A stretch of DNA of 36,453 bases from a virus: IMG/VR virus record IMGVR_UViG_3300025407_001093, positions 1-36,453 of that record; one strand, written 5' to 3'. Within the stretch, counting starts at the first letter, position 1, and each line of letters starts with the position of its first letter. Below, in pieces: positions 5,924 through 35,788 of the stretch. The notes under the pieces were generated by a model. The model was not told the DNA's origin. It saw only the letters and a list, made by a program, of their open reading frames with translations, and did not search any database. The position numbers were made by a program, and so were the translations under genes.

Positions 5924-6382
5924 TTACTTAGCAGGGGCTGCTCTGCCGAAAATACGTTCTTCATTAAGAAATACGATATTCTTTAATCCGTTCATTTTGG
6001 CACATTTAATGCCGAAGTTGCTTGGAAAAATAACGTGCTCTCCTACCTTGGTTTTACAACGAGGCCCAGCGATAATAACTTTAGCTACACGCCAAGCAGA
6101 TTGTACCATGTTTACAGGAACAAAAATACCATCTCTCATGATTTGGGTGTTATCTTCATTACAGTCTGCAAATTGACACATCATAATATCATCTAAAAGA
6201 GATTCTAACTTCCAGTCACTGAGATTGATATCTGAACCTGCATAGTTATCAAGTTGTACCAAACCTTTAACATTGTCTGTTTGTATGTCTTCATTAGCTC
6301 TTAAAGCTTTTTCGCGATCTTCAGCATTAAGGCCTTGAGCTTTTAAATCTTTTTCGATTTTATATGTTAGATTTTTCTTCAT
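5924..6382 (-). CDS. GroES/gp31-like co-chaperonin candidate
   Basis: The protein has 152 residues. The second half (about residues 95-150) reads like a GroES barrel: VAKVIIAGPRCKTKVGEHVI, then FPSNFGIKCAKMNG and FLNEERIFG. This matches the GroES order of 'V-x-x-V-G-x-G', 'K-V-G-D-x-V-x-F', 'G' and 'E-x-D-I-L-G'. T4-like phages encode gp31, a GroES substitute used with host GroEL to fold the capsid protein. The N-terminal 60-90 residues are acidic and helical and are not part of GroES. The gene overlaps the upstream gp62-like gene by 23 bases. The assignment is an inference from motif order; no mobile loop can be identified with certainty. Confidence 0.5.
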   Translation of the reverse strand: MKKNLTYKIEKDLKAQGLNAEDREKALRANEDIQTDNVKGLVQLDNYAGSDINLSDWKLESLLDDIMMCQFADCNEDNTQIMRDGIFVPVNMVQSAWRVAKVIIAGPRCKTKVGEHVIFPSNFGIKCAKMNGLKNIVFLNEERIFGRAAPAK

Positions 6383-6752
6383 TTGGTAATTTTAAGTTAA
6401 AATACTCTATGTAATGATTTACCTCTCGGCTTGATATTTCAAGGTTGTTTGCAACCTTAAGAACAACTTCATTAGATTTCTTTACAGTCTCTTTTTTGGT
6501 TTTTTTTATGTAGTTAAATCGCTTAAACTTGCAAGTCGGTATAACAGTATCTAAAGCTGTATACCAATCATTATTATTTTCAAAACTTTTCCAATATCTA
6601 TTAGTGGTTTCGTTTACTAAGCTACAAATAGAAGTAGAATACATAGAACACCAACGCTGAATAAGAAACGGTTGAAAATCCTTATTCTCGTTTATGGTGT
6701 CTATGTGTTCTTTGTTCTTTTTATATAATATACTGTTTAAATGATTAAACAT
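6360..6752 (-). CDS. 62: Probable sliding-clamp loader small subunit (gp62-like)
   Basis: This 130-residue protein contains FQPFLIQRWCSMYSTS, a Val-Asn-Glu segment, and then a Trp/Tyr helix leading to VIPTCKFKRFNYIKK. T4 gp62 has the same order (F-M-V-E-N-A-L-S-x-F-P, A-M-N, then a helix and V-P-R-G-K-R-Y-G-K-W). It works with gp44 to load the gp45 clamp onto DNA for polymerase gp43 and for late transcription. The remaining residues are lysine-rich and helical, also like gp62. It is shorter than T4 gp62 (187 residues). gp44 and gp45 are not in the window, which is unlike the T4 arrangement and lowers confidence. It overlaps the upstream DUF366-like gene by one base. Confidence 0.5.
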   Translation of the reverse strand: MFNHLNSILYKKNKEHIDTINENKDFQPFLIQRWCSMYSTSICSLVNETTNRYWKSFENNNDWYTALDTVIPTCKFKRFNYIKKTKKETVKKSNEVVLKVANNLEISSREVNHYIEYFNLKLPNEEKSNI

Positions 6753-7333
6753 TAAACAATAATCTTAGAAGTAGCTACAAATATATTATCTACCATACTA
6801 TAGAATAGAGAATGTACTTGTAGTTGAAAGTTTTCAGCGTCTGATTGAGATAAGTTAGTACTAAACGCAAAAGCAGGAGCTTTTTTACCGGCACTAATAT
6901 TAATACCAGTATGTCCAATAGCTATACTATCTTTAGAGTATGTAATGCTGACAGAAGCTTTACCTTTTTGTTGTACAATACCGCCTTGATTGTGTTCAGC
7001 GTGTACGATCAAGTCATCACCCTTCATTTGAATAGGCTTTTTAATAAAGCTATGTAAAATATTAGCAATACCAGTATTAAATAAGCGCTGAAAACAAACC
7101 GCCCCAAATGGGTCTAAGTTAGGTATTTCCCAACAAAAGTTAACCATAGAATCGCTATAAATATAGTCTTTTTCTAAAGAATCTTCTAAATCAATAAGAT
7201 TTATTGTAACTTCAACTGGAGCTACAAAGCTAACAATATTACCCACAGCTAGAGTCTTATCTCTAAAATACTTATAAGCAAAACGCTTGTGAATAAAATC
7301 GCCGTTATAGATAGTTTGGTCTTTAATGATCAT
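6752..7333 (-). CDS. DUF366-family protein, possible 7-deazaguanine pathway enzyme
   Basis: The 193 residues follow the DUF366 pattern as I remember it: IYNGDFIHKRFAYKYF near the N-terminus, then a Val/Phe strand, LIDLEDSLEKDYIYSDSMVN, 'F-W-E', QRLFNTGIANIL, GDDLIV, and SVSITYSKDSIAIGHTGINI. The conserved His, Asp and Glu residues in these blocks suggest an enzyme. DUF366 was mostly known from archaea. I recall, without being able to verify it, that phage members have been proposed as the 7-carboxy-7-deazaguanine decarboxylase DpdL. The presence of QueD, QueE, QueC, QueF and a DpdA-like gene in the same window makes a pathway role plausible. The downstream gp62-like gene overlaps it by one base. 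Confidence 0.6.
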   Translation of the reverse strand: MIIKDQTIYNGDFIHKRFAYKYFRDKTLAVGNIVSFVAPVEVTINLIDLEDSLEKDYIYSDSMVNFCWEIPNLDPFGAVCFQRLFNTGIANILHSFIKKPIQMKGDDLIVHAEHNQGGIVQQKGKASVSITYSKDSIAIGHTGINISAGKKAPAFAFSTNLSQSDAENFQLQVHSLFYSMVDNIFVATSKIIV

Positions 7334-7354: not shown

Positions 7355-8041
7355 TTAATATTGTCCAGTCCTTGCTTTATTGATAAACCAATCTTCTGCA
7401 AGTCTAAACTCGTCGGTAGGGTTTCTTAACCCCTGGGAACCGTGAATAACTTTAATATTGGTTGTGCCGAGTTTAAGTTTAGCTTTATTACATTGTAAGC
7501 TAAAGTCTAAATCATAAAAATGAAACTTAGCAGGATTACTTTCATCAAATTTTATACCTGCTTGAGCTATTTTCTTAGGGTTAAATGCTAAAAATAGTCC
7601 GTCTAATAAAACCACTCTACCGTTTTTACCGAAAGGTGTTACAAATACTGCATTACGTCCCATATCAACATGGCTAACTTCCCCTCTCTGATCTGCTCTT
7701 GCACACATTAAGTGCCATAAAGCAGGCTGTCGTATTACAGGATTAATACCACCTGCTAACCCTACTATATCATATTTTTCTAAGGCTTGATGTAACTTTT
7801 CTAACCATTTATCATCTGTAATAAGTACATCATCGTGAGTTAACACTAATACACAATCCTCGTCTTTGTAGGAATCAATAACAGAGTTATAAATTTTAGC
7901 TATAGCAGTCTTATTATTAAAGACTCCGTGTGTGGTAGTAACTTCGTTTAAGTATTCACTATTAACTATAGTGTATTTGCTTCTGTTCTTGAGTTCTGAA
8001 AAAGAAGCAGCTGTAGAACAAAAACTTAAATACGTGTTCAT
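7355..8041 (-). CDS. GT-A fold glycosyltransferase-like protein
   Basis: This 228-residue protein resembles family 2-type glycosyltransferases of the short phage kind. It has an N-terminal nucleotide-binding strand region, then CVLVLTHDDVLITDDKWLEK, where the HDD corresponds to the DxD-like metal/nucleotide-sugar site. Downstream are VVLLDGLFLAFNPKK and KFHFYDLDFSLQCNKAKLKL, matching the acceptor-side 'D-G-x-F-x-A...F-D-E...Y-D-x-D' block, and a late His (VIHGSQGL). It probably transfers a sugar to a virion or DNA target; substrate unknown. It overlaps the 86-residue upstream gene by one base (ATG/TAA). Confidence 0.7.
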   Translation of the reverse strand: MNTYLSFCSTAASFSELKNRSKYTIVNSEYLNEVTTTHGVFNNKTAIAKIYNSVIDSYKDEDCVLVLTHDDVLITDDKWLEKLHQALEKYDIVGLAGGINPVIRQPALWHLMCARADQRGEVSHVDMGRNAVFVTPFGKNGRVVLLDGLFLAFNPKKIAQAGIKFDESNPAKFHFYDLDFSLQCNKAKLKLGTTNIKVIHGSQGLRNPTDEFRLAEDWFINKARTGQY

Positions 8042-8719: not shown

Positions 8720-8725
8720 TATTTA
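8720..8725 (-). promoter_or_regulatory. Late-promoter-like element TAAATA before membrane protein gene
   Basis: The minus strand reads CTAAATATATAC then ATG at 8714. The TAAATA core is five bases from the start codon. The core overlaps the TAA stop of the amidotransferase gene upstream. Confidence 0.5.
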
Positions 8726-9379
8726 GAAAACAAAGTACGGAGACTTGTGTTTAAATCTACCTGCAGGCACTATACTATTGTAATCTTGTAATGCGTATAC
8801 AATTCCCTCTTTTAAGGATTCACTACCTTCAAACTCGGTAGACGAAAAACACCCTGTAACTGGATTAGCAAATAATGTACTCGCACTTCTGGCTAAGTAA
8901 GTTTTCTTGTGTTTGTTATTAAAAGCCCATATAGCATATGTACCTTTAAGAGATTCCATAGCTTCTGATACTTTTATCTTTATTTCTAACATACGCGGTA
9001 TAATACAGCTGTCTGTCCTATCGGTAAAATCTTCGTCGGGAAAATACTCTCTACATAAACTCTCAAAATTACTAATAATACCGTTATGAGCCACTATCCA
9101 ATCACCATAAATGAACGGGTGATTGTTTATCGCTTCAAATGATTTTGTTTCAACAGTAGGGCCACGGGAATGATATAAAAAGTAACGACCGTGAGTGTCT
9201 ATACCCGGCGGGTTAAAACAGTCTATAGGTTCATTAAAAATACCTTCAGTTTTGTGTACGTGGTATTGATCATTAGAGTCTAATGTTAGTGCACCTGAAC
9301 TATAATAACCTCTTGCAAGATTATCTTTGTATAACTTAAAAGCTATATCTTTATTTTTACTACCTGCTATACCGCACAT
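8723..9379 (-). CDS. Class II glutamine amidotransferase (stand-alone GATase domain)
   Basis: The protein starts MCGIAGS, so Cys2 is exposed as the N-terminal nucleophile of an Ntn-type glutaminase once Met1 is removed. The expected substrate-binding motifs follow: YHSRGPT, NNHPF and VAHNGIISN, then DRTDSCIIPRML. At 218 residues it is only the glutaminase domain, with no isomerase, PRTase or synthetase domain attached, so it must pass ammonia to a partner. It lies one base after the stop of QueC. In some archaea and phages a GAT domain joined to QueC (Gat-QueC) turns preQ0 into the archaeosine base. A split Gat plus QueC pair is therefore the leading hypothesis; aminosugar synthesis for the many glycosyltransferases is the alternative. 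Confidence 0.85.
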   Translation of the reverse strand: MCGIAGSKNKDIAFKLYKDNLARGYYSSGALTLDSNDQYHVHKTEGIFNEPIDCFNPPGIDTHGRYFLYHSRGPTVETKSFEAINNHPFIYGDWIVAHNGIISNFESLCREYFPDEDFTDRTDSCIIPRMLEIKIKVSEAMESLKGTYAIWAFNNKHKKTYLARSASTLFANPVTGCFSSTEFEGSESLKEGIVYALQDYNSIVPAGRFKHKSPYFVF

Positions 9380-9380
9380 A

Positions 9381-10103
9381 TTATGTTAAATAGGTTAAAG
9401 GTTTGCAATCGTATTGTTCCCAAGGAATGTTACGTGAATATTTAATAGGGTCAATAGCTTTGTTGTCAATAAAACCTTTGATGCGTGCTGCACATGATAC
9501 ACATTCCCCGCAAGCTGGGTCAGTACCCTCATAACAGGTATGTGTTTGTCTAAAGTCTACTTGTAAGTCAATACCGGTTTTAATAACCTCTTCTTTAGAG
9601 TAACGCATAAACGGTGCATTAACCTTGATCGTGTTTTTGCGATTAAGACCGTATATGTCGTTAACCTTATTAAGAAACATTGACGTGCAGTCCCAATAAC
9701 CACTAAAGTCGTCGGTTTCTACTGCACCGTAAAACAGGTCTTGAGCCCCAATAGATTCAGCCCAACCAGCAGCTGAAGTAAGTAAAAGTAAATTTCTAAA
9801 AGGAACGTAACTCAAGGGCTGTGCATTACCGATATCATCTTTAGCTTTCGGTATTTTGAGATTAGTATTAGTTAAAGCAGACATCGTGGAGATATCTCTA
9901 AAGAAATCCATATTAATTACTTTATGCTCTTTAACATTACACGCTTTAGCTTGAAACTTAGCACATTCAATCTCTCGAGCAATCCGCTGCCCGTAGTTAA
10001 AAGTAACAGCATATACTTCATCGTATTTGAGCGTTTTAGTTACATAATGTAATAATACGGTACTATCCATACCGCCTGATAATATGACTAGTGCTTTTGA
10101 CAT
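9381..10103 (-). CDS. queC: 7-cyano-7-deazaguanine (preQ0) synthase QueC
   Basis: QueC converts 7-carboxy-7-deazaguanine to preQ0 using ATP and ammonia. The PP-loop SGGMDST occupies residues 9-15, followed by the family pattern VTFNYGQR and QPLSYVPFRNLLLLTSAAGWAE. The C-terminal zinc site is clear in HTCYEGTDPACGECVSCAAR, which supplies four cysteines. At 240 residues it is full length. The start ATG is preceded by a short divergent intergenic region and no Shine-Dalgarno. It is co-transcribed with the amidotransferase downstream. With QueE, QueD and QueF in the same window it belongs to the 7-deazaguanine DNA-modification pathway rather than to host tRNA queuosine. Confidence 0.93.
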   Translation of the reverse strand: MSKALVILSGGMDSTVLLHYVTKTLKYDEVYAVTFNYGQRIAREIECAKFQAKACNVKEHKVINMDFFRDISTMSALTNTNLKIPKAKDDIGNAQPLSYVPFRNLLLLTSAAGWAESIGAQDLFYGAVETDDFSGYWDCTSMFLNKVNDIYGLNRKNTIKVNAPFMRYSKEEVIKTGIDLQVDFRQTHTCYEGTDPACGECVSCAARIKGFIDNKAIDPIKYSRNIPWEQYDCKPLTYLT

Positions 10104-12001: not shown

Positions 12002-12457
12002 ATGTCTTCAAAGAATAGCAAATATATTCAAGGAATTTATACCCCTATTAACAAAAACAAATATATGGGTAATGGTAATCCTGTGTATAGGTCTTCATTA
12101 GAAAGAGATTTCTTTTTATTCTTTGATCAAAATCCAAATGTTACTGCTTGGGTAAGTGAGGGCATAGTTGTTCCTTATTATAGTAGTATTGATAATAAAG
12201 TACATAACTATTATGTAGATTTAGTAGCAGCAATCAAGGAAAAAGACGGTACAGTACAAAAATATTTGATTGAGTTAAAACCACACTCTCAAACTCAACC
12301 ACCACAATCTAATGATAGAAAAAGAAAAAGCACTATACTGTACGAACAGTTAATGTGGCACAAGAATCAGAGCAAATGGAAAGCCGCGAGTGAGTACGCG
12401 GCTAAAAAAGGTATGAAGTTTGTAGTTCTTACCGAAAAATACTTAACTCAATCCTGA
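12002..12457 (+). CDS. 4: Head completion protein gp4
   Basis: In T4, gp4 (also called gp50) is needed to complete the filled head before tail joining. The 151-residue protein matches the conserved pattern of marine T4-like gp4: YIQGIYTPINKNKYMGNGNP, YRSSLERDFFLFFDQNPNV, then 'W-V-S-E', VVPYYSSIDNKVHNYYVDL and YLIELKPHSQTQPP. The E...E...D...E-x-K arrangement (SLER, VSEG, YVDL, IELK) is that of a TnsA/PD-(D/E)xK nuclease-like fold, so the protein may trim DNA at the portal; that activity is an inference. It is a single plus-strand gene with a late-type promoter, and its 3' end overlaps the convergent neighbour by ten bases. Confidence 0.88.
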   Translation: MSSKNSKYIQGIYTPINKNKYMGNGNPVYRSSLERDFFLFFDQNPNVTAWVSEGIVVPYYSSIDNKVHNYYVDLVAAIKEKDGTVQKYLIELKPHSQTQPPQSNDRKRKSTILYEQLMWHKNQSKWKAASEYAAKKGMKFVVLTEKYLTQS

Positions 12458-14264: not shown

Positions 14265-15071
14265 TTAAACCTTGAGTGCGCGATCCCAGACCTGCAAGTG
14301 CATTCTGTTAGAGAACTTAAAATTATATTTCTTACATAGTTCAGCCACTACAGGCCCAACTTCTAGTAGCTCTTTACGGCTACCGCACATTGGCATAATC
14401 CATACTTGACTTGAACGTACAGCTACTTCAGGGCTATTAAGATAGTTTTCTAATACTTCATTTAAGTCTGACTCTTGTTTAGCTACAAACTTAAAACAAG
14501 CATCATGTACAGCTAGATAACGCAATACTTCTGGTTTATAACGTTTATCAGCAGGATCTCCGTTACTTGATAGTTTAGGCGAAGTAGTATATGTTACATG
14601 TACGCCAATACGAGACCATTCTTCATCCGGCATAATAGTGCCGTTAGTTTCAAAGTCTACATGCAATGTAGGCCTACCAATATCTTCCATTGTTAATGTT
14701 CTGCTGTAGTTTTTAAAACCCCAACGATCTCTAATAAACTTAACAAATAGTAATAAGTTCTTTTGCTGAATAAAAGGTTCACCACCAGTTAACTTAAGTA
14801 ATGCACCTTCTTTTAAACGTTCATGATAATCGTTTTTCTCAAAGAGTTGTGCAACCTCTTCAAATGTCATTTTGTTTTTCTTAGACCAGCTAATATAGCT
14901 ATCACAACCGTTCGGTGAGTCTTCACTCTTAAAACCGATACATGTTAAGTTACACATAGCCATTCTCATAAACACTGAAGGATGACCGATATAACGGCCC
15001 TCTCCTTCTAGCGTATAGAACACAAAATCGTCTGAAATAAATAAAGTTGTATTAGGGTCAATATTAGACAT
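14265..15071 (-). CDS. queE: 7-carboxy-7-deazaguanine synthase QueE (radical SAM)
   Basis: QueE rearranges carboxy-tetrahydropterin to 7-carboxy-7-deazaguanine with SAM and a 4Fe-4S cluster. The N-terminus has the family signature LEGEGRYIGHPSVFMRM followed by CNLTC and a third cysteine in NGCDSY. The spacing is C40-x3-C44-x11-C56 instead of the classical C-x3-C-x2-C, a divergent cluster loop. The SAM-binding motif GGEP is at residues 96-99 (LLKLTGGEPFIQQ). Later, VDFETNGT and YTTSPKLS match the family. At 268 residues it is full length. It lies downstream of QueD with a 22-base gap, so the two form a biosynthetic pair. Confidence 0.9.
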   Translation of the reverse strand: MSNIDPNTTLFISDDFVFYTLEGEGRYIGHPSVFMRMAMCNLTCIGFKSEDSPNGCDSYISWSKKNKMTFEEVAQLFEKNDYHERLKEGALLKLTGGEPFIQQKNLLLFVKFIRDRWGFKNYSRTLTMEDIGRPTLHVDFETNGTIMPDEEWSRIGVHVTYTTSPKLSSNGDPADKRYKPEVLRYLAVHDACFKFVAKQESDLNEVLENYLNSPEVAVRSSQVWIMPMCGSRKELLEVGPVVAELCKKYNFKFSNRMHLQVWDRALKV

Positions 15072-15093: not shown

Positions 15094-15558
15094 TTAGCTT
15101 TTCCACCCACTTTGAGGTATAGTTTCAAATATAGCACTATTGCCTTCATGTTCCCAAACTTCTACTTTTTCACACCAGCATCTTCCGTTAGTTAAGTCTT
15201 TAACGTGTTCGTTTGCTAGTTTATGACATAGTTCAGCAAACCTTTCAATACCTACTCCGTCTTCAAGAATTACTAGTTCAATCATCTTACGTTCTTCTAG
15301 TTGTTTAAACATATCTAAGTCAGGGTCTTTAGCCCAAACCACTGTTTTATGGTCGAAATATTCTTCTAGAGCAGTTTTAAGTTGCTTAAGACCGCCGAAA
15401 TCAACAACCCAGTTGTTGTTATCTAATGTATCACAAGAGAACCAAAACTTGGCCTGTAAACGATAGCCATGAATAAAATGACAATGGCTTTGAGCGTAGG
15501 GCTGTCTGAAAGCAGCCGAACCCAACGGAATGACTTTAGTTGATGTAAATTTACCCAT
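15094..15558 (-). CDS. queD: 6-carboxy-tetrahydropterin synthase QueD (HGY variant)
   Basis: QueD makes carboxy-tetrahydropterin from dihydroneopterin triphosphate and is the first dedicated step to 7-deazaguanine. The 154-residue protein has the PTPS/QueD core: SAAFRQPYAQSHCHFIHGY, then WVVDFGGLK and EYFDHKTVV. Catalytic Cys26 is followed by the zinc motif His30-Gly-Tyr32, so the usual second His of HGH is Tyr, and the usual upstream His is replaced (AAFRQ). I know this form from a QueD/PTPS subgroup with CxxxHGY, so it is likely active, but its zinc site must use other residues such as His25 or His27. It is upstream of QueE on the same strand. Confidence 0.85.
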   Translation of the reverse strand: MGKFTSTKVIPLGSAAFRQPYAQSHCHFIHGYRLQAKFWFSCDTLDNNNWVVDFGGLKQLKTALEEYFDHKTVVWAKDPDLDMFKQLEERKMIELVILEDGVGIERFAELCHKLANEHVKDLTNGRCWCEKVEVWEHEGNSAIFETIPQSGWKS

Positions 15559-22068: not shown

Positions 22069-23064
22069 ATGAATATTGCCTTACACTCAAATCAATTCGA
22101 TAACCGCGGTTCTACCCGCGTAACCTATGATTACGGTCTAGCACTAAGAGATATACTTGGTCACAACGTAACATTTGTTACCTCTAGTATGAATGCTAAC
22201 GAGGGTATTGAAAAAATATCTAAAGAGTTTGAAGTCATTACATACGATTCTAAAGTAGAAGTATCTCTTGCTTCTGTAGTAAAAACTGATATAAGCAGAG
22301 TAGTAGATGATAAAAAAATAGACTTCCTATACATGTTTAAATCTGGTACTATAGATCACATTACACCAGATAACTGTAAAACAGGTATACATTGTGTTTT
22401 TAACTGTAGTGAGCCTCATGGAAGTGTTTATGCTGCTATATCAGAAAACTTAGCTAAAAAATACAATATAAACAAGTTTGTACCCCATATTATTAATAAG
22501 GTAGCACCTAATAAAGATATTAAAGCTGCACTAGGCATACCTAAAGATGCTTTAGTTATTGGTAGACACGGAGGTAATGATTCATTTGATTTAGCATTTG
22601 TACATAGAGCAGTAGAAACTATTCTTAAAACAAGAAACGATGTTTACTTCCTATTTTTATCTACTAATGCTTTTATTAAACATGATAGAGCTATGTTTTT
22701 TCCGTGGATAACTAATGATGTTGGTATATCTAATTTTATTAATGCATGTGACATTATGATACATGCTCGTCATATGGGAGAGACATTTGGTTTAGCAGTA
22801 GGAGAGTTTTCCTCTCATAACAAACCTGTGATGACCTGGAGCGGTAAAATGCCATGGAGTGGAGAAACCAATCTTGGTTACGATACCGCTCATATAGATC
22901 ATTTAGGAGATAAAGCTATACTTTATCATGATTATAACAGTCTAGTTAACATTATGGAAGGTCTAGATGTGCAGTATTTACGTAGTCAAAACTGGGACAT
23001 GTTTTCAGAGAAGTTTAGTGCTAACAATGTAATTAACCAATATAAGGATGTATTTTTAACATGA
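22069..23064 (+). CDS. GT-B glycosyltransferase (GT4-like)
   Basis: This 331-residue protein looks like a two-Rossmann-fold glycosyltransferase. The N-terminal half has NRGSTRVTYDYGLALRDILG and HNVTFVTS. The C-terminal nucleotide-sugar domain shows LVIGRHGGNDSFDLAF, VYFLFLSTNAF and METFGLAVGEF-type sequence at HMGETFGLAVGEFSSHNKPV, the usual E-x7-E donor site. It is the first of six glycosyltransferase-like genes inserted between gp47 and gp46; gp47 ends one base upstream. The acceptor is unknown: virion proteins, host surface glycans or modified DNA bases are possible. Confidence 0.78.
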   Translation: MNIALHSNQFDNRGSTRVTYDYGLALRDILGHNVTFVTSSMNANEGIEKISKEFEVITYDSKVEVSLASVVKTDISRVVDDKKIDFLYMFKSGTIDHITPDNCKTGIHCVFNCSEPHGSVYAAISENLAKKYNINKFVPHIINKVAPNKDIKAALGIPKDALVIGRHGGNDSFDLAFVHRAVETILKTRNDVYFLFLSTNAFIKHDRAMFFPWITNDVGISNFINACDIMIHARHMGETFGLAVGEFSSHNKPVMTWSGKMPWSGETNLGYDTAHIDHLGDKAILYHDYNSLVNIMEGLDVQYLRSQNWDMFSEKFSANNVINQYKDVFLT

Positions 23065-23885
23065 AAATCGGTGTTGGTATTATTACCTGTAACAGAAACA
23101 ACTACTTAAAAGCTTTAATAACTACACTTCCTATGGACGTGGTAGATGCTTTAGTCGTAGTTAACGACGGTAAGGCTGAAAATCAAATAGAGGTACCAGG
23201 TACTTGGTTACAGAATGAAGTCAATCTTGGTGTAGGTAAATCTAAAAACAAAGCAATGAAGTATCTTTATGATGCTGGTTGTAATTATATTTTTATTATT
23301 GAAGATGATATGCTTATTAAAGATAAAAATGTATTTATGAAATACATTGAAGCATATCAAGAAACCGGTATACAACATTTTAACTACGGACCTGGTTCAC
23401 CATTTAACCGTAAACAAAACATAGAGTTTGATCTTCATAATAGACATTTACTCGATCAAAAGAGTCCTGTTAATCCTCGTATTGTTATTGAGTATCCTGG
23501 AGAAATTAAGATTGCATTATATACTCATACAGTAGCAATGTTTTCGTTTTTTACAAGAGAAGTACTCGAGAAGGTAGGCTATATTGACGAGCAGTTTTAT
23601 AATGCTTGGGAACACGTAGACCATACCTATCGTATTGCACTAGCTGGTTACCATCCTCCATTTTGGTGGTTTGCTGATATAGCTGATAGTGAGAAATACC
23701 TCGAAGAAGCTCCTGGTGCTATCGATAACTCATCTATTGCAGACAAGAAAGAACAATGGCATAAGAACGTGTACGGTGGTAGAGAGCTTTACAAGACTAA
23801 ACACGGACACTATCCGAACGAACCTAAAAACTATACTCAAAACGAGGTTTTAAATATACTTAAACAAATAAAATACCGTAAATGA
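23061..23885 (+). CDS. Family 2 glycosyltransferase
   Basis: The 274-residue protein has the GT-A start KIGVGIITCNRNNYLKALIT, the nucleotide-binding VVVNDGK, the helix NLGVGKSKNKAMKYL, and the DxD-type IFIIEDDMLIKD. A late acceptor block FFTREVLEKVGYIDEQFYNA and WEHVDHTYRIALAGY matches GT2 enzymes. It overlaps both neighbours by four bases (ATGA), so the cassette is translated as a coupled unit. Confidence 0.85.
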   Translation: MKIGVGIITCNRNNYLKALITTLPMDVVDALVVVNDGKAENQIEVPGTWLQNEVNLGVGKSKNKAMKYLYDAGCNYIFIIEDDMLIKDKNVFMKYIEAYQETGIQHFNYGPGSPFNRKQNIEFDLHNRHLLDQKSPVNPRIVIEYPGEIKIALYTHTVAMFSFFTREVLEKVGYIDEQFYNAWEHVDHTYRIALAGYHPPFWWFADIADSEKYLEEAPGAIDNSSIADKKEQWHKNVYGGRELYKTKHGHYPNEPKNYTQNEVLNILKQIKYRK

Positions 23886-24631
23886 ACGAAATCATTACAT
23901 ATGGACAGAACTACAGTCTTAACAAAGGTATAGAAAACTTTGTTAAGTCAGCTGTAAAAACTAACAATACTGTCACTGTTATAGGCTACAATCTTAAGCA
24001 AGATGTACTAGATTATCTCAAGAAAAATAACTGTAACTTTGTTGATGCTGATCAAATAGCGAAAAAGTATAATGTGGATATGAAACTATCACCTTATACA
24101 CTTAAAGTTATTTTCTTTTATCTGTATTGCAGTAAAATTTCTACAGCTGATAATGTGTTTTTGTGTGATTTTACCGATGTTTATTTTAATAAAAACATAT
24201 TTGATTTCGTTTCAGTAAAACCAATGGTATTTGGGGAAGGTCAGATAATACGTAACTGTCAGACTAATACTACTTGGATAAACTTATGTTATAATCAAGA
24301 CATATACGGATTGTTACAAAAGTATGAGATTATTAATGGAGGAGCCATACTTGGTTGGAGATCTCAGTGTATAGGTTTATTAAAAGAAATGTGTTTAGAT
24401 ACTTCTATTATATTAGGTAGAATAGGAAACTATGCTAATATAGATCAGGCCATACTTAATAAGGTGGTTCGTTTTGATCAATACAGATACGAAATAGGGT
24501 CTAAAACAACTGTACTAAACTTAGCACAAGTTAGCATACAAACTAAATGGAATAAGAGCAATGTACCAGCTGTATTTCATCAATATGACGGGCACCCAGA
24601 TGTAGAAAGTTTTATTAATGAGCAAAGTTGA
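23882..24631 (+). CDS. GT8/PLOD-like glycosyltransferase candidate
   Basis: This 249-residue protein has a central strand NVFLCDFTDVYFNKNIFDF in which D-F-T-D resembles the DxD metal site of GT8-like or lysyl-hydroxylase-type (PLOD) glucosyl/galactosyltransferases. It is followed by YEIINGGAILGWRSQCIGLL, NIDQAILN and VFHQYDGHP, the expected order of acceptor and terminal His motifs. The N-terminus TVTVIGYNL is Rossmann-like. The overlap pattern (4 bases upstream, 14 downstream) places it in the cassette. The fold assignment is from motif order. Confidence 0.65.
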   Translation: MNEIITYGQNYSLNKGIENFVKSAVKTNNTVTVIGYNLKQDVLDYLKKNNCNFVDADQIAKKYNVDMKLSPYTLKVIFFYLYCSKISTADNVFLCDFTDVYFNKNIFDFVSVKPMVFGEGQIIRNCQTNTTWINLCYNQDIYGLLQKYEIINGGAILGWRSQCIGLLKEMCLDTSIILGRIGNYANIDQAILNKVVRFDQYRYEIGSKTTVLNLAQVSIQTKWNKSNVPAVFHQYDGHPDVESFINEQS

Positions 24632-25358
24632 TGTAATCATTTTATCTCTTGTTAACGATGACAAGAGCTTTGAAGTAACTAAAAGATGTATTGATTCTTA
24701 TATTAATACAGCTGATGAACTCATTAACAATATATTTGTTATTGAAACTAATAAAACCTTTAATAGAGATTATAATCAACCTAAAGTAGAGGTAATAATA
24801 CCCCCTTACGAGTTTAACTATAACCAGTTTTTTAATATAGGTTTAAGCCGTTGTAAATCAGATTATATAATAGGCCCTAATAACGATTTAATAATACAAG
24901 AAAACTGTATACAAAACATCGTAAAAGAGTTTGAAACCAACTCTACTATCAGTTCTATTAGCCCTATTGATAGAAATTGGCATCGTCATACTAAACAGTA
25001 TTTTCCTGATGATAATAAACTTTATTATGGGTATGAAACATCTTTACACTTGTTTGGTTGTATATTTGCAGCAAGACGCGGAGTATTTGAAGTTATAGGT
25101 TATCTTGATGAACGTTTCTTTTTCTTTTATCAAGATAATGATTACTCAATGTGTTTAGAAAGAAACAAACTGTTACATGGTGTATTAACCAGTGCTAGAG
25201 TTAAACATAAAGTAGGTGGTACATCTGCTAAAGGCTCTTCTAGAACAGATTATACCCCAGAGAACATGAACAAACAGGGTAATATTTTAGCAGATAAATG
25301 GAATAACGAGCCGTTCAAATCAGGTGGATTTAAACAGTTCAAACCGTATATACTTTAA
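24618..25358 (+). CDS. Family 2 glycosyltransferase
   Basis: The 246 residues begin KVDVIILSLVNDDKSFEVTK, then show FVIETNKTFN, NYNQFFNIGLSRCKSDYIIG and 'P-N-N-D-L-I-I' as the DxD-type site. GCIFAARRGVFEVIGYLDER, then FFFFYQDNDYSMCLERNKL, is the classic GT2 acceptor block with a Gln-Asp-Asn-Asp. The start lies inside the preceding gene. It is most like rhamnosyl- or galactosyltransferase-type GT2 enzymes, but the donor cannot be read from sequence. Confidence 0.83.
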   Translation: MSKVDVIILSLVNDDKSFEVTKRCIDSYINTADELINNIFVIETNKTFNRDYNQPKVEVIIPPYEFNYNQFFNIGLSRCKSDYIIGPNNDLIIQENCIQNIVKEFETNSTISSISPIDRNWHRHTKQYFPDDNKLYYGYETSLHLFGCIFAARRGVFEVIGYLDERFFFFYQDNDYSMCLERNKLLHGVLTSARVKHKVGGTSAKGSSRTDYTPENMNKQGNILADKWNNEPFKSGGFKQFKPYIL

Positions 25359-27106: not shown

Positions 27107-27124
27107 AGATTATAATGATCTCTA
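27104..27124 (+). promoter_or_regulatory. Hairpin abutting the gp46 start codon
   Basis: TAGAGAT and ATCTCTA form a perfect 7-bp inverted repeat around a TATAATG loop. The right arm ends at the base before the gp46 ATG. It also covers the stop of the preceding gene. It could limit ribosome access to gp46, bind a regulator, or shield an RNA 5' end; no Shine-Dalgarno is present. Confidence 0.45.
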
Positions 27125-30135: not shown

Positions 30136-32697
30136 GTGTATCGTAACGTATATTATAACTCAAGAGAATCTTCTGCATACCTATTTACCTGGGACAAAAA
30201 CGGTAAACGGGTTGTTAAGAAAGAACTGTATAGTCCTTACTTTTATGTAGAGACTAATCAGGACAATCACGATGCTATATCTATTTTTAACACTAAGTTA
30301 AAGAAGAAGGTATTTAAGAACTCGTATGAACGTAATAAGTCTGCACAAGATGGTGCTATTAAACGTTTATATCACAATATTCAGGTAGAGCAACAGTTTC
30401 TTATCGAAAAGTATAAAGATGACTACGAAAAACCTGAGTTTTCTGCTAACCCGTTAAAGGTTTGCTTTCTTGATATCGAAGTTTACTCGCCAGATGAGTT
30501 TCCTGAAGCTAAGGATGCAAAGCACCCTATTAACCTTATAACCATATATGACAACTTATCTGATACGTTTTATACTTGGGGTGAAAAACCTTATACACCA
30601 ACACGCGACAATGTTGTATATACAGAGTGTCGTAGTGAGGTGGATTTGCTTAATAAGTTTCTAGAGTTCTGGGAAAACGATTATTACCCAGATATTCTTA
30701 GCGGGTGGAACACGGACTTTTTCGACTTTCCTTATACTATTAATCGTATCAATAACTTATTAGGTGAAGATGCTGCAAAGCGTTTATCTCCATTAAAAAG
30801 TCTTTGGTGTCGTAAAGGTATCTTTGTTAAAGGTCAAGAGCTAGATCGTTGGTACATTCACGGTATATCAGCTATGGACTACATGGAAGTGTATAAAGGC
30901 TTTGCACGTGGTTTATTAGAGTCATATGCACTAAACTTTGTAGCACAACATGAACTAGGTGAAGGTAAACTAGCTATTAACGCTACTAACCTAGCCGCTT
31001 TAGCCGGTAGCGATTGGAAAAACTTTGTAGACTATAATATTCAAGACGTTGATCTGTTAGTACGAATGGAAAAGAAACTACAGTTTTTTAAGATCATACG
31101 TATGTTAGCTTACAAAGGTTTAACTAGCTTTGAAGCTGCTTTAGGTAAAGTTCAAATTGTTACCGGTTGTGTTGCTTTAGAAGCATACAAGCACGGTTTG
31201 GTTATACCAACGTTTGTGTCTGGTCCTACTAGAGATGAAATCGAAGGTGGGTACGTTAGAGATCCTGAACGCGGTTTAAAGACTGCTATTGTGAGTTATG
31301 ACGCTAACTCTCTATACCCTAACACCATTATTACTCTCAATATATCACCAGAAACTAAAATAGGCAAAATCGTACGCAAGACAGATACAGAAGCAACGTT
31401 ATTATTAGCTAGTGGTGCAGAAAAGACGGTACCACTCGATAAACTTGAAAAGTTTATGGAGATAGAAAAGTTAGCTATATCTAAAGCTAATGTTTTATAT
31501 ACTCAAAAGAAAAAAGGCGTTGTGCCTTCATTGATTGATGGTCTTTATAGTGAACGTGTAAGAAATAAGAACCAATACATTGAATACAAAAAACAACTAA
31601 GTAATTTACCCCCAGATACAGATGAGTACAAAACGTGTAAGTTTAATATGGAACGAGCTGACACCATCCAGCACGTTATTAAAATTCTTCTTAATTCTAT
31701 TTATGGTGTTTTTGCTAATAAGTTTAGCCCTATTTGCGATAGTGATCACGCCGGTAGTATTACTCTTACTGGTCAGTCAGTGGTTAAGCAGGCGGGTATC
31801 ATCCTTGATAAATACGCTAAAGACAAATACGGGGTTAATACGTCCCTTAACATTTACGGTGATACTGATAGTACTCATATTACTATTAGACCTATCCTTG
31901 ATAAAATTAAGCTTAACATATTTAAAGACGGTAAAGTAACACCAGAAGGTATAGATTTAATAGACAAAGAGATTGGTACATACTTAAATAGTGAGATTAA
32001 AAAGTGGTCTGCTTCTGAGTTTAAGTCTATCGATCCTCGTTACTTCTTTAAACGGGAGTCGATTTGTGATGTAGGTGTTTACCTGCAAAAGAAACGTTAT
32101 ATTATTCATGTATTAAACGATGAAGGTGCAAATGTTAGTAAGTTTAAGTACGTTGGGGTTGAAATCGCTAGGTCTACAACGCCAAAGAAAGCAAAAGAAC
32201 TGATTAAGAAGGTTATTGAGAACTCTTTGTTAGGTCAGGATCAAATAAAGGCAAACAGTCTTTATAAAGAGGTTTACGATGCATTTAAAAAGTTAAATGT
32301 TGATGAAATAGCTATCCGTGGCGGTCTTAGTGATTTAGAGAAGTACGAAGTAAAAGCAGATGGCTTTAAGATAGGTACCGGCACACCTAATCACGTTAAA
32401 GGTGCATTATGGTATAACCAACTACTAAAACATTTACATTTGGAAACAAAGTATGAACGAATTACTTCCGGTGGCAAAGTAAAGAAGATTTATATTGCAC
32501 CAAACAAGTATAATATCGATACTCTTTGTTACCCTTACAACTTTCCACCAGAATTTAATGAATTTCAAGTAGACTATATTGAAATGTTCGATACAATAAT
32601 TAAACCGCCGATATTAGCTGTATATGAAGCTATTGGATGGCGTTTACCAGATTTAACTAACGAAGTAACAACAGACTTATTTGACATATTCTCATGA
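30136..32697 (+). CDS. 43: DNA polymerase gp43 (family B)
   Basis: Replicative polymerase with proofreading exonuclease. The 853 residues show Exo I (Asp113, Glu115 in FLDIEVYSP), Exo II (DILSGWNTDFFDFPY), Exo III (YNIQDVDLL), polymerase motif A (YDANSLYPN), motif B (KILLNSIYGVFANKFSP) and motif C YGDTDS with Asp576 and Asp578. T4 gp43 is 898 residues. The start is a GTG at 30136 after a 31-base gap. The DpdA-like gene overlaps its stop by four bases (ATGA), directly coupling polymerase and DNA-modification enzyme expression. Confidence 0.96.
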   Translation: MYRNVYYNSRESSAYLFTWDKNGKRVVKKELYSPYFYVETNQDNHDAISIFNTKLKKKVFKNSYERNKSAQDGAIKRLYHNIQVEQQFLIEKYKDDYEKPEFSANPLKVCFLDIEVYSPDEFPEAKDAKHPINLITIYDNLSDTFYTWGEKPYTPTRDNVVYTECRSEVDLLNKFLEFWENDYYPDILSGWNTDFFDFPYTINRINNLLGEDAAKRLSPLKSLWCRKGIFVKGQELDRWYIHGISAMDYMEVYKGFARGLLESYALNFVAQHELGEGKLAINATNLAALAGSDWKNFVDYNIQDVDLLVRMEKKLQFFKIIRMLAYKGLTSFEAALGKVQIVTGCVALEAYKHGLVIPTFVSGPTRDEIEGGYVRDPERGLKTAIVSYDANSLYPNTIITLNISPETKIGKIVRKTDTEATLLLASGAEKTVPLDKLEKFMEIEKLAISKANVLYTQKKKGVVPSLIDGLYSERVRNKNQYIEYKKQLSNLPPDTDEYKTCKFNMERADTIQHVIKILLNSIYGVFANKFSPICDSDHAGSITLTGQSVVKQAGIILDKYAKDKYGVNTSLNIYGDTDSTHITIRPILDKIKLNIFKDGKVTPEGIDLIDKEIGTYLNSEIKKWSASEFKSIDPRYFFKRESICDVGVYLQKKRYIIHVLNDEGANVSKFKYVGVEIARSTTPKKAKELIKKVIENSLLGQDQIKANSLYKEVYDAFKKLNVDEIAIRGGLSDLEKYEVKADGFKIGTGTPNHVKGALWYNQLLKHLHLETKYERITSGGKVKKIYIAPNKYNIDTLCYPYNFPPEFNEFQVDYIEMFDTIIKPPILAVYEAIGWRLPDLTNEVTTDLFDIFS

Positions 32698-33500
32698 TTA
32701 AAATATCACACGAATCTCCCTTAAGTATGCTCGAGATATCTCGTACATACAACGATTACTGCTATGCACTCGTGCACCTCTTTGAAACTCACCCGCAATA
32801 CTACAAGTTCTTTGAAGACAGTGTTAAAGGTGGTAGGCATGTTTTATTAGATAACTCTATATTTGAGTTAGGTACCTCTTTTGACTCTAAACGTTATGCT
32901 CACTGGATACAAAAGCTTAACCCTACAGAATATATTATACCAGACGTGTTAGAAGATTGTCAAGGTACTATTGATTCAGCTAAGAAGTGCTTATGGAAAG
33001 ATTGGGACTTTGTTAGTAGCTCTAAAACTATTGGTGTTGTGCAAGGAAAGACTTACGGTGAACTAGTTAAGTGTTATGTAGCACTAGATCAAGAGATCGG
33101 CGTAGATAAACTAGCTATTTCATTTGACTATTCTTATTACCTTAAAGCATTTCCTCATCCTAACAAGTGGGTATCTTATATGATGGGTAGAGTAATAACT
33201 TTAACTCAGTTAATGAATGACGGTATCATTAATAAAGATAAACCTCATCATTTATTAGGTTGTGCACACCCAAGAGAGTTTAGTTTCTATCAAGGACCTG
33301 AATATAACTGGATCGAAACACTAGATACTTCTTCTCCTATTGTACATGGTATTAAAAGAGTAAGATATTCTGATGTTATTGGTAACTGGAAGAAAGAATC
33401 TACCAAACTTGTAGATCTTTTAGATGTAGTACCAGATGAAATACAAGAAAGAATCATTGCAAGCAATCTGATTCAGTTTAGAAACTATGTTAATGGATGA
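32694..33500 (+). CDS. dpdA: DpdA-like DNA guanine transglycosylase
   Basis: DpdA enzymes, relatives of tRNA-guanine transglycosylase, exchange guanine in DNA for a 7-deazaguanine base after replication. The 268-residue protein has the family landmarks in order: HVLLDNSIFELG (like the TGT D-S-G-G-F site), EYIIPDVLED, IGVVQGKTYGELVKCY (like I-V-Q-G-G), KLAISFDYSYY, HHLLGCAHPREFSFY (like the TGT G-V-G-T-P loop) and IETLDTSSPIVHGI, with Asp211 as the likely nucleophile. It lacks the TGT zinc site and is shorter, as expected for phage DpdA. It overlaps gp43 and the following small gene by four bases each. QueF, a formyltransferase and, elsewhere in the window, QueC/D/E supply the pathway. Confidence 0.85.
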   Translation: MIKISHESPLSMLEISRTYNDYCYALVHLFETHPQYYKFFEDSVKGGRHVLLDNSIFELGTSFDSKRYAHWIQKLNPTEYIIPDVLEDCQGTIDSAKKCLWKDWDFVSSSKTIGVVQGKTYGELVKCYVALDQEIGVDKLAISFDYSYYLKAFPHPNKWVSYMMGRVITLTQLMNDGIINKDKPHHLLGCAHPREFSFYQGPEYNWIETLDTSSPIVHGIKRVRYSDVIGNWKKESTKLVDLLDVVPDEIQERIIASNLIQFRNYVNG

Positions 33501-33727
33501 CAACTTTAGAAGCTATAACTAATTCTGTACATGCAAACTATCCTCACTTACTGGCCGATTCTGTTTATATCCGCGATTATTCTTTCTGGGATTGTATTCG
33601 TAATCATGAACTCCCGGTAAAAGAGCTTGCAGATGTTAAACCTTACCTAATAAAACACGGTATTGTTGACTTTACACTTGTAATTTTCTTTAGTGATAAT
33701 ACAATAGGGTATCGACTAAACATATGA
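33497..33727 (+). CDS. Hypothetical protein, 76 aa, in DNA-modification operon
   Basis: Unrecognised. It starts MTTLEAITNSVHANYPHLLA and has a Trp/Tyr-rich middle (YIRDYSFWDCIRNHELP) and a hydrophobic strand FTLVIFFSDN. It is joined to DpdA and to the formyltransferase by four-base ATGA overlaps on both sides, so all three are probably made together. A role as an accessory subunit of the modification system is a guess from position. Confidence 0.6.
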   Translation: MTTLEAITNSVHANYPHLLADSVYIRDYSFWDCIRNHELPVKELADVKPYLIKHGIVDFTLVIFFSDNTIGYRLNI

Positions 33728-34302
33728 AACGTACCTTAATCTGGAAAACCTTTTTCTCTCAGAGTGGATCTGAGATATATGAGATATCTAAGCATATCGG
33801 TAGGTTTCCAGATGCAATCATAACTAATAAAAGCTTTGAAGATATGGACAAAATCAATCCTAATCTTCTAGAAAAATGTTTTGATCGTTTTATATTTTTA
33901 CCTAAGAAACCAACAGTAGAAGAATATAGAGAGGCTATTAAGCATACCGATATTATTACTCTTCACGGTTATCTTCGTATACTACCGCCACAGATCTGCG
34001 GTAGATTCAAGATATACAACGGACATCCAGGTCTTATAACTAAGTTTCCTGAGTTAAAAGGTAAAGATCCTCAGGCTAAAGTGTGGTTCAGTCACGCCGA
34101 AAGACCTTACTATCAGCACGGACACGTTATACATGAAGTTATACCTGAAGTAGATGCTGGTAAAGTAGTGTCTGAGAAAGAGTTTTATAGCAAGAATATC
34201 TACAATGAATTTGATAGCTTAGACGATTATATTGGAAGACTGCATAAACTGGCAATCGAAAATTGGGTTGGCTTTATGCGCAAAAGCCTATTAAATAAAT
34301 AA
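33724..34302 (+). CDS. dpdN: PurN-fold formyltransferase, candidate dPreQ1 formyltransferase DpdN
   Basis: The 192 residues contain the formyltransferase core: DIITLHGYLRILPPQICGRF, then IYNGHPGLITKFPELKGKDP, where Asn99 and His101 match the catalytic Asn-x-His of PurN and Met-tRNA formyltransferase, and EVDAGKVV, where Asp144 matches the PurN Asp. The cofactor would be 10-formyl-tetrahydrofolate. Phage DpdN has been described as the enzyme that formylates preQ1 in DNA. The placement one small gene after DpdA and two genes before QueF makes that role more likely than purine synthesis. The substrate is inferred from context, not from sequence. Confidence 0.75.
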   Translation: MKRTLIWKTFFSQSGSEIYEISKHIGRFPDAIITNKSFEDMDKINPNLLEKCFDRFIFLPKKPTVEEYREAIKHTDIITLHGYLRILPPQICGRFKIYNGHPGLITKFPELKGKDPQAKVWFSHAERPYYQHGHVIHEVIPEVDAGKVVSEKEFYSKNIYNEFDSLDDYIGRLHKLAIENWVGFMRKSLLNK

Positions 34303-34305
34303 CTT

Positions 34306-34881
34306 ATGAGATCAAACTATAAAGCTGCAATCTGTGGCGCTCATTCACAAGGTAAGACAACGTTAGTAAAAGCACTAAAAGATGATCTGTTTTTAGACGA
34401 TCAGCATTTTAGTTTTAGAACTAATCTAACGAGAGGTCTTAAAGATTTAAATGTACCTATTAATGAAGGCGGTACTTCTTTAACTCAGTATTTGATAATG
34501 GCTAGACATTTAGAGTACGGTTTAACTCCGGGTAACTGGATATTAGATAGAGGTGCTTTAGATGGTATTGCTTACACGACTTACTTTTATGAAAAAGGTC
34601 AAGTTAGTAAAGATGTGTATCAAGCTGCTTTAGCTGTTTATGAAGAACTGCTAAAAGTATATGATAAGATTTTTTATGTTGTACCTGAACTTGAAGTAAA
34701 AGATGATGGTGAGAGAAGTACAGGTAAGGAGTTTTTTGATGGTGTTGTTAAGCAGTTTGACTTTTATCTAAAACACCATTCAATGCCTACAGATAAACTT
34801 GTTTATGTAATGGGTTCTGTAGAAGATAGAGTTAAGATTGTAACTGATAACTTAAAGAAAGATTTTACCAATGAGCTATAA
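34306..34881 (+). CDS. P-loop NTPase/nucleoside kinase-like protein beside QueF
   Basis: This 191-residue protein starts MRSNYKAAICGAHSQGKTTL with Walker A GAHSQGKT. WILDRGALDGIAYTTYFYEK gives the Asp-Arg substrate motif, and IFYVVPELEVKDDGERSTG is a lid-like region. It is an AAA_28/NadR-type kinase and a distant relative of the one at 13.1 kb. It overlaps QueF by 11 bases. It might phosphorylate a pathway intermediate or salvage nucleosides; neither can be decided here. Confidence 0.7.
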   Translation: MRSNYKAAICGAHSQGKTTLVKALKDDLFLDDQHFSFRTNLTRGLKDLNVPINEGGTSLTQYLIMARHLEYGLTPGNWILDRGALDGIAYTTYFYEKGQVSKDVYQAALAVYEELLKVYDKIFYVVPELEVKDDGERSTGKEFFDGVVKQFDFYLKHHSMPTDKLVYVMGSVEDRVKIVTDNLKKDFTNEL

Positions 34882-35788
34882 TACTAATAATATTGACAAA
34901 GTACTTGGTCAGAGAGTTGATTCTCCTACCACCTACACGCCTGAGATCTTAGTGCGTGAAGAACGTCAACGCAATCGTACCTACTTAGGTTTACAGAACG
35001 ATTCCTTACCATTCGTAGGTTACGATATCTGGAACGGTTATGAATGTAGTGCATTAACAAATAACGGTTTACCTGTTACCTGTGTTGCTAAAGTAGTGTA
35101 TCCAGCTACTAACCCTTATATTGTAGAGTCTAAGTCAATGAAGCTCTACTGGAACTCATTTAATATGCAGCCTATGGGTAAGACTGTAGCAGAAGCATTA
35201 AACAATATTAAAAAGACTGCTTCAGAAGACCTATCTAAACTATTAGAGACAGATGTAGAAGTTGATCTATTTCCACAAGTACAAATAAAAGACTTTGCTG
35301 CTCGTGAAGTTTGGTTAAGAGATTATGATCCTGGTATCTGGTTACCGTTAGAAAGTATTAAGAGCGCAGAAAGTATTAAGTTTACAATATTCAACGAATC
35401 AGCTGATTTGTTAGTAGCTAATGAATCTGAAGTGAATAAAAAGCACTTCTATATGAGCACTCTATTACGTTCTAACTGTAAGATTACAAAGCAACCAGAT
35501 TCAGGTGATATCTTTATCTACTATAAAAGCGATAAAGAAGTAACTGAACAATCTTTACTAGAATGGATCGTATCATTCCGTAATGAATGTCATTTCCATG
35601 AAGAAATCTGTGAAGCTGCTTATAAACGTCTTTGGGACTTATTAGAACCAGATGAACTTATGGTAACTTGTTTTTATGCCCGTCGTGGTGGCTGGGACAT
35701 CGTGCCAACTCGTGCATCTGATAAAAAACTATTAGATCAACATTTAATAAACTCAAAGTACCCTTATTTTAAGTTTCCTCGTCAATAA
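34871..35788 (+). CDS. queF: NADPH-dependent 7-cyano-7-deazaguanine reductase QueF (long form)
   Basis: QueF reduces the nitrile of preQ0 to the aminomethyl group of preQ1 with two NADPH. The 305 residues follow E. coli QueF (282) closely: LPFVGYDIWNGYECSALTNN with GLP, then ESKSMKLYWNSFN with ESKS at 86-89, the catalytic Cys203 in RSNCKITKQPDSGDI with Asp210, SFRNECHFHEE with FHEE at 242-245, and YARRGGWDIVP. It is the two-domain type. Its presence shows the phage goes past preQ0 to preQ1, which is the substrate expected for the formyltransferase nearby. It starts inside the kinase gene. Confidence 0.92.
   Translation: MSYNTNNIDKVLGQRVDSPTTYTPEILVREERQRNRTYLGLQNDSLPFVGYDIWNGYECSALTNNGLPVTCVAKVVYPATNPYIVESKSMKLYWNSFNMQPMGKTVAEALNNIKKTASEDLSKLLETDVEVDLFPQVQIKDFAAREVWLRDYDPGIWLPLESIKSAESIKFTIFNESADLLVANESEVNKKHFYMSTLLRSNCKITKQPDSGDIFIYYKSDKEVTEQSLLEWIVSFRNECHFHEEICEAAYKRLWDLLEPDELMVTCFYARRGGWDIVPTRASDKKLLDQHLINSKYPYFKFPRQ

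Follow-up and report, generated by a model that had tools for sequence, protein, structure and literature searches.

What does a protein of the DUF366 family do in a virus that also encodes QueC and QueF? The question is raised by a 36-kb virus record with T4-like replication genes (IMG/VR record IMGVR_UViG_3300025407_001093, positions 1 to 36,453), which is likely a fragment of a virus genome and is called the window below, meaning the whole stretch of 36,453 nucleotides that was analysed. Its DNA polymerase (30136-32697) matched 2,554 phage records, every one of them at less than 60% identity. A sequence-only reading had assigned one gene of the window to DUF366 and linked the family with DpdL, an enzyme that would decarboxylate 7-carboxy-7-deazaguanine (CDG) in competition with QueC and leave the phage with a mixture of bases, unless the protein does something else.

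The DUF366 gene and the modification genes around it

The assignment to DUF366 holds. PF04017 aligned with residues 2-191 of the protein over profile positions 5-183 of 184 (E 4e-20; 72.5 bits, the curated cut-off being 29.9), and a genome-level profile search agreed with this (71.7 bits). No PHROG family and no NCBIfam family matched the protein at E <= 0.1. Relatives were encoded in 532 of the 537 pattern-matching stretches of a viral contig scan, and 80 were kept; dN/dS between the window gene and kept relatives was 0.065-0.160 in all eight pairs computed, which indicates that the gene is maintained by purifying selection. The Pfam entry assigns no function to the family. No mention of DUF366 or PF04017 was found in a literature search that had most subscription papers outside its scope, so that this absence is weak, and within the same scope nothing was found on DpdL together with 7-deazaguanine and phages. 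DUF366, PF04017 and Dpd are all absent from the available part of the main text of PMC13329287.

Table 1. Genes of the window that bear on the role of DUF366
Feature	Position	Strand	Basis
DUF366 (PF04017) protein, predicted biotin/lipoate-ligase fold	6752..7333	-	ORF, ATG start, 193 aa; profile, predicted structure, dN/dS
QueC	9381..10103	-	PF06508 E 2.4e-62; TIGR00364 above cut-off; motif YWDCT vs canonical YPDCR
Gat, class II glutamine amidotransferase domain, directly downstream of QueC	8723..9379	-	PF13522 E 9.7e-9
QueE-like radical SAM protein (7-carboxy-7-deazaguanine synthase)	14265..15071	-	TIGR03963 E 4.8e-14, under curated cut-off
QueD (6-carboxytetrahydropterin synthase)	15094..15558	-	PF01242 E 1e-16
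DpdA-type DNA guanine transglycosylase	32694..33500	+	48.9% to annotated DpdA of Flavobacterium phage immuto
Small ORF between DpdA and formyltransferase	33497..33727	+	no Pfam match
Formyltransferase, candidate dPreQ1 formyltransferase	33724..34302	+	PF00551 E 4e-7; 43% to immuto protein
AAA_28 nucleotide-kinase-like protein, same cassette	34306..34881	+	PF13521 E 4.6e-10; 36% to immuto protein
QueF, preQ0 nitrile reductase, two-domain type	34871..35788	+	PF14819 E 1.1e-28, PF14489 E 8.4e-18
Glycosyltransferase-like neighbour adjoining DUF366	7355..8041	-	PF13712 E 6.1e-11
Possible clamp-loader small subunit, directly downstream of DUF366, neighbour only	6360..6752	-	phrog_225 E 0.0014
Possible GroES-like co-chaperonin, neighbour only	5924..6382	-	phrog_3188 E 0.0073

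The 7-deazaguanine setting proposed for the locus was right as well: besides QueC and QueF, which are present as claimed, the window encodes QueE, QueD, a DpdA-type transglycosylase and a formyltransferase (Table 1), and its phage probably rewrites guanines of its DNA. No FolE was found in the window. The DpdA-type protein also matches, at 43%, a CP220 protein annotated as hypothetical, and its match to the Pfam TGT family reaches only E 0.12. The formyltransferase is presumably what has been named DpdN. Flavobacterium phage immuto has DpdA, a small ORF, formyltransferase, kinase and QueF in the same order as the window, the likeness of the small ORFs being one of position, and like the window it also has QueC, QueD and QueE. 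Unlike the window, however, immuto has no DUF366, and its QueC keeps the arginine discussed below.

On the other strand, the order QueD, QueE, QueC, Gat, glycosyltransferase, DUF366, clamp-loader-like gene and GroES-like gene is kept in the 80 viral loci, as far as the stretches reach. In two long records (G323 and G325) Gat and a glycosyltransferase-like gene are adjacent although QueC lies about 2 kb off, and Gat may therefore also serve a sugar-linked function. At one locus (L268) the kinase, DUF366 and the clamp-loader-like gene each occur twice in tandem, which is either a real duplication or an assembly artefact. Elsewhere in the window, several glycosyltransferase-like ORFs were seen by eye to form a run (22069-30104) near recombination-type genes and ahead of the DNA polymerase, possibly for DNA or surface glycosylation. 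A TnsA-like N-terminal nuclease domain (12002-12457; PF08722, E 2.6e-17) may, we presume, belong to a head-completion protein, as in T4-like phages.

QueC beside DUF366 in viruses and in cells

DpdL is reportedly a predicted 7-carboxy-7-deazaguanine decarboxylase, as Cui and colleagues are said to have written in 2023, and DUF366 resembles it in that the target of both, in phages with 7-deazaguanine, would be CDG. A DUF366 protein of this kind would make 7-deazaguanine. Apart from the suggestion of the earlier reader, this idea seemed to gain from one set of viral loci. In the first search QueC was found in 16 of 17 DUF366-bearing viral records, the sole miss being a 24-kb record. A second viral scan, with the divergent L100 protein as query, gave 149 relatives, of which 80 were kept, and 66 of these loci had no QueC in the stretch; 61 of the 66 make up the L267-L327 set, where QueE occurs at eight loci, and this looks like CDG synthesis with DUF366 and without QueC. 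The whole records overturned that support. QueC was found in nine of the 25 that were searched, including all records of at least 55 kb, and the 16 without it were all 53.2 kb or shorter. The whole records behind L267-L327 loci in which QueC was found are G321-G325 and G327, where the gene is cut by the contig end. Over both searches together, 11 fetched viral records with DUF366 are 55 kb or longer, and every one of them has QueC.

Viral records speak also to the idea that DUF366 fills a missing FolE, QueD or QueF step, which was rejected for phages. All three enzymes occur in one record of 122 kb (G323) together with QueE, QueC, Gat, DpdA, formyltransferase, kinase and DUF366. Among eight DUF366 viral records tested, QueD was found in seven, QueF in six and FolE in three (G012, G015 and G018), the misses falling in incomplete or possibly incomplete records. 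Another long record (G325, 111 kb) has FolE, QueD, QueE, QueC, Gat and DUF366; DpdA, formyltransferase and QueF were not found in it.

The phages phiST and MA9V-3, where QueD, FolE and a DpdA relative are present and QueC is not, were also without a detectable DUF366, and this speaks against a decarboxylase. In all, DUF366 was absent above the cut-off from 24 of 25 records or genomes searched for it, the only exception being Microcystis phage MaAM05 (MW495066.1); CP220 gave a DUF366 profile score of 11.6 bits across two stops, which is chance level. MaAM05 was likewise the only match when three DUF366 queries were run with tblastn against GenBank phage records. The 40 kb of this record (L082) that was read carries annotations for glyS, murJ, secDF, fliM and ompA, and it shares stretches as long as 6.4 kb with two Vampirovibrio contigs (L097 and L091) at 80-89% identity. 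MaAM05 is probably a piece of a Vampirovibrio-like bacterial genome under a wrong label. Since the sole GenBank phage match thus looks bacterial, it is disfavoured, short of exclusion, that DUF366 is a DpdL known from isolates.

In bacteria the family was followed in two sets, a profile scan with 11 loci and a sample of one phylum in which PF04017 occurs in 51 of 291 genomes; two genomes are shared, which makes 60 in all. In 37 of 51 distinct bacterial loci (L103 and L137, repeats of L094 and L099, were left out of this count) the next gene after DUF366, at most 200 bp away and on the same strand, is QueE, and in 16 of the 37 adjacent pairs the matched stretches of the two genes overlap. The 14 loci without an adjacent QueE include two that end at or near the contig edge there (L109, L138), one with QueE about 1.9 kb off (L134) and five from Vampirovibrio. 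QueC lies directly upstream of DUF366 in 7 of the 51 loci, and in G006 and G010 QueD is directly upstream of QueC. The linkage of DUF366 with QueE and QueC in operons is thus conserved, as would be expected of a member of the preQ0 machinery.

At the level of genomes, QueC (E <= 1e-20) occurs in 46 of the 51 DUF366-bearing genomes of the phylum sample vs. 160 of the 240 others. The 11 genomes of the profile scan all have QueC and QueD, and eight have QueF. The search for FolE, which covered type I, found it in two of the 11, so that a FolE role of DUF366 in cells is formally possible. TGT was found in 37 of 38 DUF366-bearing genomes tested (of the 60). Among the control genomes DUF366 occurs only in M. 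jannaschii and M. acetivorans, and QueC also in Haloferax and Sulfolobus. Because of the QueE operons and the co-occurrence of QueC, QueD, QueF and TGT, DUF366 in cells appears to be part of preQ0/queuosine synthesis, where discarding CDG would make little sense.

A decarboxylase competing with QueC is therefore unsupported by the distribution of the gene, and we consider it improbable. The linkage with QueE does suggest that DUF366 acts near CDG, and five DUF366-bearing genomes of the phylum sample (G222, G284, G296, G297 and G305) gave no QueC match. However, DUF366 accompanies QueC and, unlike what the DpdL idea implies, does not replace it; the pattern that we ourselves would ask of such an enzyme, CDG made and QueC missing, is not the one in which DUF366 is found. 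Its predicted fold is, moreover, unfamiliar to us as that of a decarboxylase. The other option left by the sequence-only reading, that the protein does something else, is favoured by the co-occurrence with QueC, by the operons with QueE, QueC and QueD, and by the carboxylate-activating ligase fold that the structural model suggests.

A QueC without the arginine of its YPDCR motif

QueC was read in 52 of the 55 DUF366-bearing bacterial genomes that have it (all but G001, G003 and G005), and every one of the 52 has a QueC in which Ser or Thr replaces the Arg of the canonical motif YPDCR. Among 34 genomes without DUF366, counted irrespective of completeness and taken non-randomly from 160 with QueC (13 by low PF06508 score, 21 others from the list), Arg is kept in 30, Ser stands in three (G033, G292 and G312) and the copy is frameshifted in one (G147). 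One genome (G274) has two QueCs, of which the Arg-less copy adjoins DUF366 and the other keeps the Arg. DUF366 phages have Thr or Ser in all 64 near-complete QueCs, the window included, a set in which some loci are near-copies and from which two short matches were dropped, and in five of five from G321-G325.

QueCs were also read from phages without DUF366 (n = 18), and here ten have the Arg and eight do not: KVP40, Vibrio 1.081.O, pf16, 9g, PSTCR7, PhiXhv-15, Iggy and Motura. The profile found a Gat next to QueC, or fused with it, in five of these eight (KVP40, Vibrio 1.081.O, pf16, PSTCR7 and PhiXhv-15) and, within the stretches examined, in none of the ten with Arg. Phage 9g carries a Gat-QueC as well (PMC6884629, in the part available), its Gat having been missed by the profile. 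At bacterial loci there was no Gat match (0/143) in the stretches examined, many of which cover only about 1 kb around QueC. KVP40, 9g and their relatives are therefore like the window in that their QueC adjoins a glutamine amidotransferase or is fused with one and lacks the Arg after YPDC, and unlike it in having no DUF366. Since Gat-linked QueCs without DUF366 have lost the Arg too, its loss in phages is confounded, and in the window QueC it may reflect Gat and not DUF366. That the loss is specific to DUF366 was accordingly weakened for the window and kept for bacteria only.

A tree of 22 randomly chosen QueCs of DUF366-bearing bacteria, 29 of more than 190 residues from genomes without DUF366 and 36 from phages placed the first group in one clade (100/99) next to the Gat-QueC of 9g-like phages; G292 and G312, with an Arg-less QueC and no DUF366 found, fall inside it. 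The QueCs of DUF366 phages, the window among them, fall in another clade, with KVP40 and pf16 (100/99), where their single origin is weakly supported (37/1). With two QueC lineages in the tree, the associations of DUF366 with Arg-less QueC in bacteria and in phages are separate. As the bacterial Arg-less QueCs form one clade, the correlation over 52 genomes comes close to one event, and so does that in phages. The QueCs of G321-G325 read WTCYSNRE...SSSLR or SSSMR and keep SGGxDS and VPFRN. Those of G321, G322, G324 and G325, and that at L332:14472-15221 (G323:90472-91221), have no C-terminal zinc cysteines in the aligned stretch, and the same is true of immuto QueC.

The QueC relative Cap9 is also without the Arg. 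The Tyr and Asp of the YPDC motif, both present in B. subtilis QueC as well, make contact with the base in Cap9 (PMC13279940, as far as the text was available); E. coli QueC Y131A is inactive, according to an excerpt of PMC13329287. In a strain lacking queC, the 9g Gat-QueC made dG+ (PMC6884629, available part), which implies that QueC needs neither the Arg nor DUF366 to use CDG as such. As Cap9 makes the amide from CDG and stops there (PMC13279940, same excerpt), DUF366 might instead serve the second half-reaction, from ADG to preQ0, or repair ADG, with QueC making the amide only. The nitrogen for the first half could come from the Gat next to phage QueC. We nevertheless hold this reading to be improbable: to our knowledge, proteins of the biotin/lipoate-ligase fold work on acyl groups or carboxylates and not on amides. 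KVP40, of which phage nt-1 is presumably a relative, carries an Arg-less QueC and lacks DUF366. The DNA of nt-1 contains dPreQ0 (PMC6884629, available part). The host may, however, supply preQ0.

Fold of DUF366 and its possible role

The AlphaFold2 model of the window protein (pLDDT 89.8, pTM 0.88) superimposes on the solved DUF366 structure 2ddz with Z 21.3 and an rmsd of 2.4 over 178 residues. Among the 50 rows listed, with candidates taken from the list of Foldseek, 2ddz is followed by biotin protein ligases (Z 13.2-10.6) and LipB (1w66, Z 11.7); in Foldseek itself the first biotin and lipoate ligases appear at E 4e-6 to 2e-5. By this model DUF366 is a protein of the biotin/lipoate-ligase superfamily fold, shared over the catalytic domain and spanning nearly the whole protein as in biotin protein ligase, LplA and LipB. 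GDD..K of DUF366 aligns with PND..KK of the biotin ligase 2eay, that is, with the Asp and catalytic Lys motif of the superfamily; the sequence match is sub-threshold (E 0.32) and its register is right. The Pyrococcus horikoshii protein 2ddz also matches the profile over its full length and has the GDD..K..SI..H.G.N core in common with the window, and the window-type phage proteins differ from the 2ddz type by an insertion between GDD and K. No second domain was seen by eye in the long open frames read for DUF366 fusions.

An alignment of 21 phage and bacterial DUF366 sequences has 20 invariant columns, the polar residues being D48, D51, E69, R83, D106, D107, K125, H141 and K190. A loop of the type GRGR, which we take to be the ATP-binding motif of biotin ligases, was not seen by eye in this alignment. 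DUF366 thus differs from biotin protein ligase proper, and it is set apart from biotin protein ligase, LplA and LipB also by its linkage to QueE and QueC.

The missing loop would suit a protein without catalysis of its own, either a carrier of CDG or a scaffold that links QueE to QueC and hands over CDG, perhaps together with the ammonia set free by QueE; the tight coupling to QueE, down to overlapping matches, and the co-occurrence with an altered QueC fit such a partner too. Yet the invariant polar residues look like an active site and the fold family is enzymatic, and we think a non-catalytic partner unlikely. Very improbable, in our view, is a role in which DUF366, in parallel with Cap9 and in the manner of a biotin ligase, couples CDG to an amine of a protein. 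The fold and the genetic tie to CDG synthesis agree with such a protein deazaguanylation, and conjugation of CDG to protein exists in CBASS (PMC13279940, available part), but an unsystematic look noticed no partner protein beside DUF366, and base synthesis explains the conservation in ordinary queuosine operons more simply.

The reading that we prefer, as a tentative one with somewhat less than an even chance of being right, is that DUF366 works with the Arg-less QueC on CDG, in the part of the pathway leading from CDG to preQ0. Enzymes with the biotin/lipoate-ligase fold activate or transfer carboxylates, and CDG has one. DUF366 would bind CDG, its conserved Lys would play the part towards the 7-carboxylate that Lys plays in biotin ligase, and the carboxylate would be activated or amidated (CDG to ADG), after which the Arg-less QueC would complete the nitrile. 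DUF366 may serve either half-reaction, amidation of CDG or the step from ADG to preQ0. On the other side of the balance, canonical pathways manage without DUF366, the Arg-less QueCs of the eight phages and of G292 and G312 go without it, and the ATP loop of biotin ligases is not visible in the alignment. In the window phage, QueF would then reduce preQ0 to preQ1, and after insertion of preQ1 in DNA by DpdA the formyltransferase would add the cap. The immuto cassette suggests by analogy that the base to expect is formylated dPreQ1 and not plain deoxy-7-deazaguanine; a base fdPreQ1 reportedly exists and is said to go with DpdN in the 2023 work of Cui and colleagues.

A more specific form of this proposal, possible if on the unlikely side, is a two-protein preQ0 synthase, in which DUF366 activates and amidates the CDG carboxylate and the Arg-less QueC carries out only the conversion of amide to nitrile. 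This alternative route would supply bacteria, and the archaea with DUF366, with precursors of queuosine or archaeosine, and one group of T4-like phages would have adopted it for DNA modification. QueC is presented as a single enzyme with two ATP-dependent steps (PMC13329287, in the part available). If DUF366 is indeed a second enzyme for this step, coupled to a subfamily of QueC whose substrate loop is changed, there would be more than one solution to the step, and a family whose structure (2ddz) is solved but unexplained would gain a function. The presence of DUF366 in a phage would then not be a reason to read plain 7-deazaguanine into its DNA.
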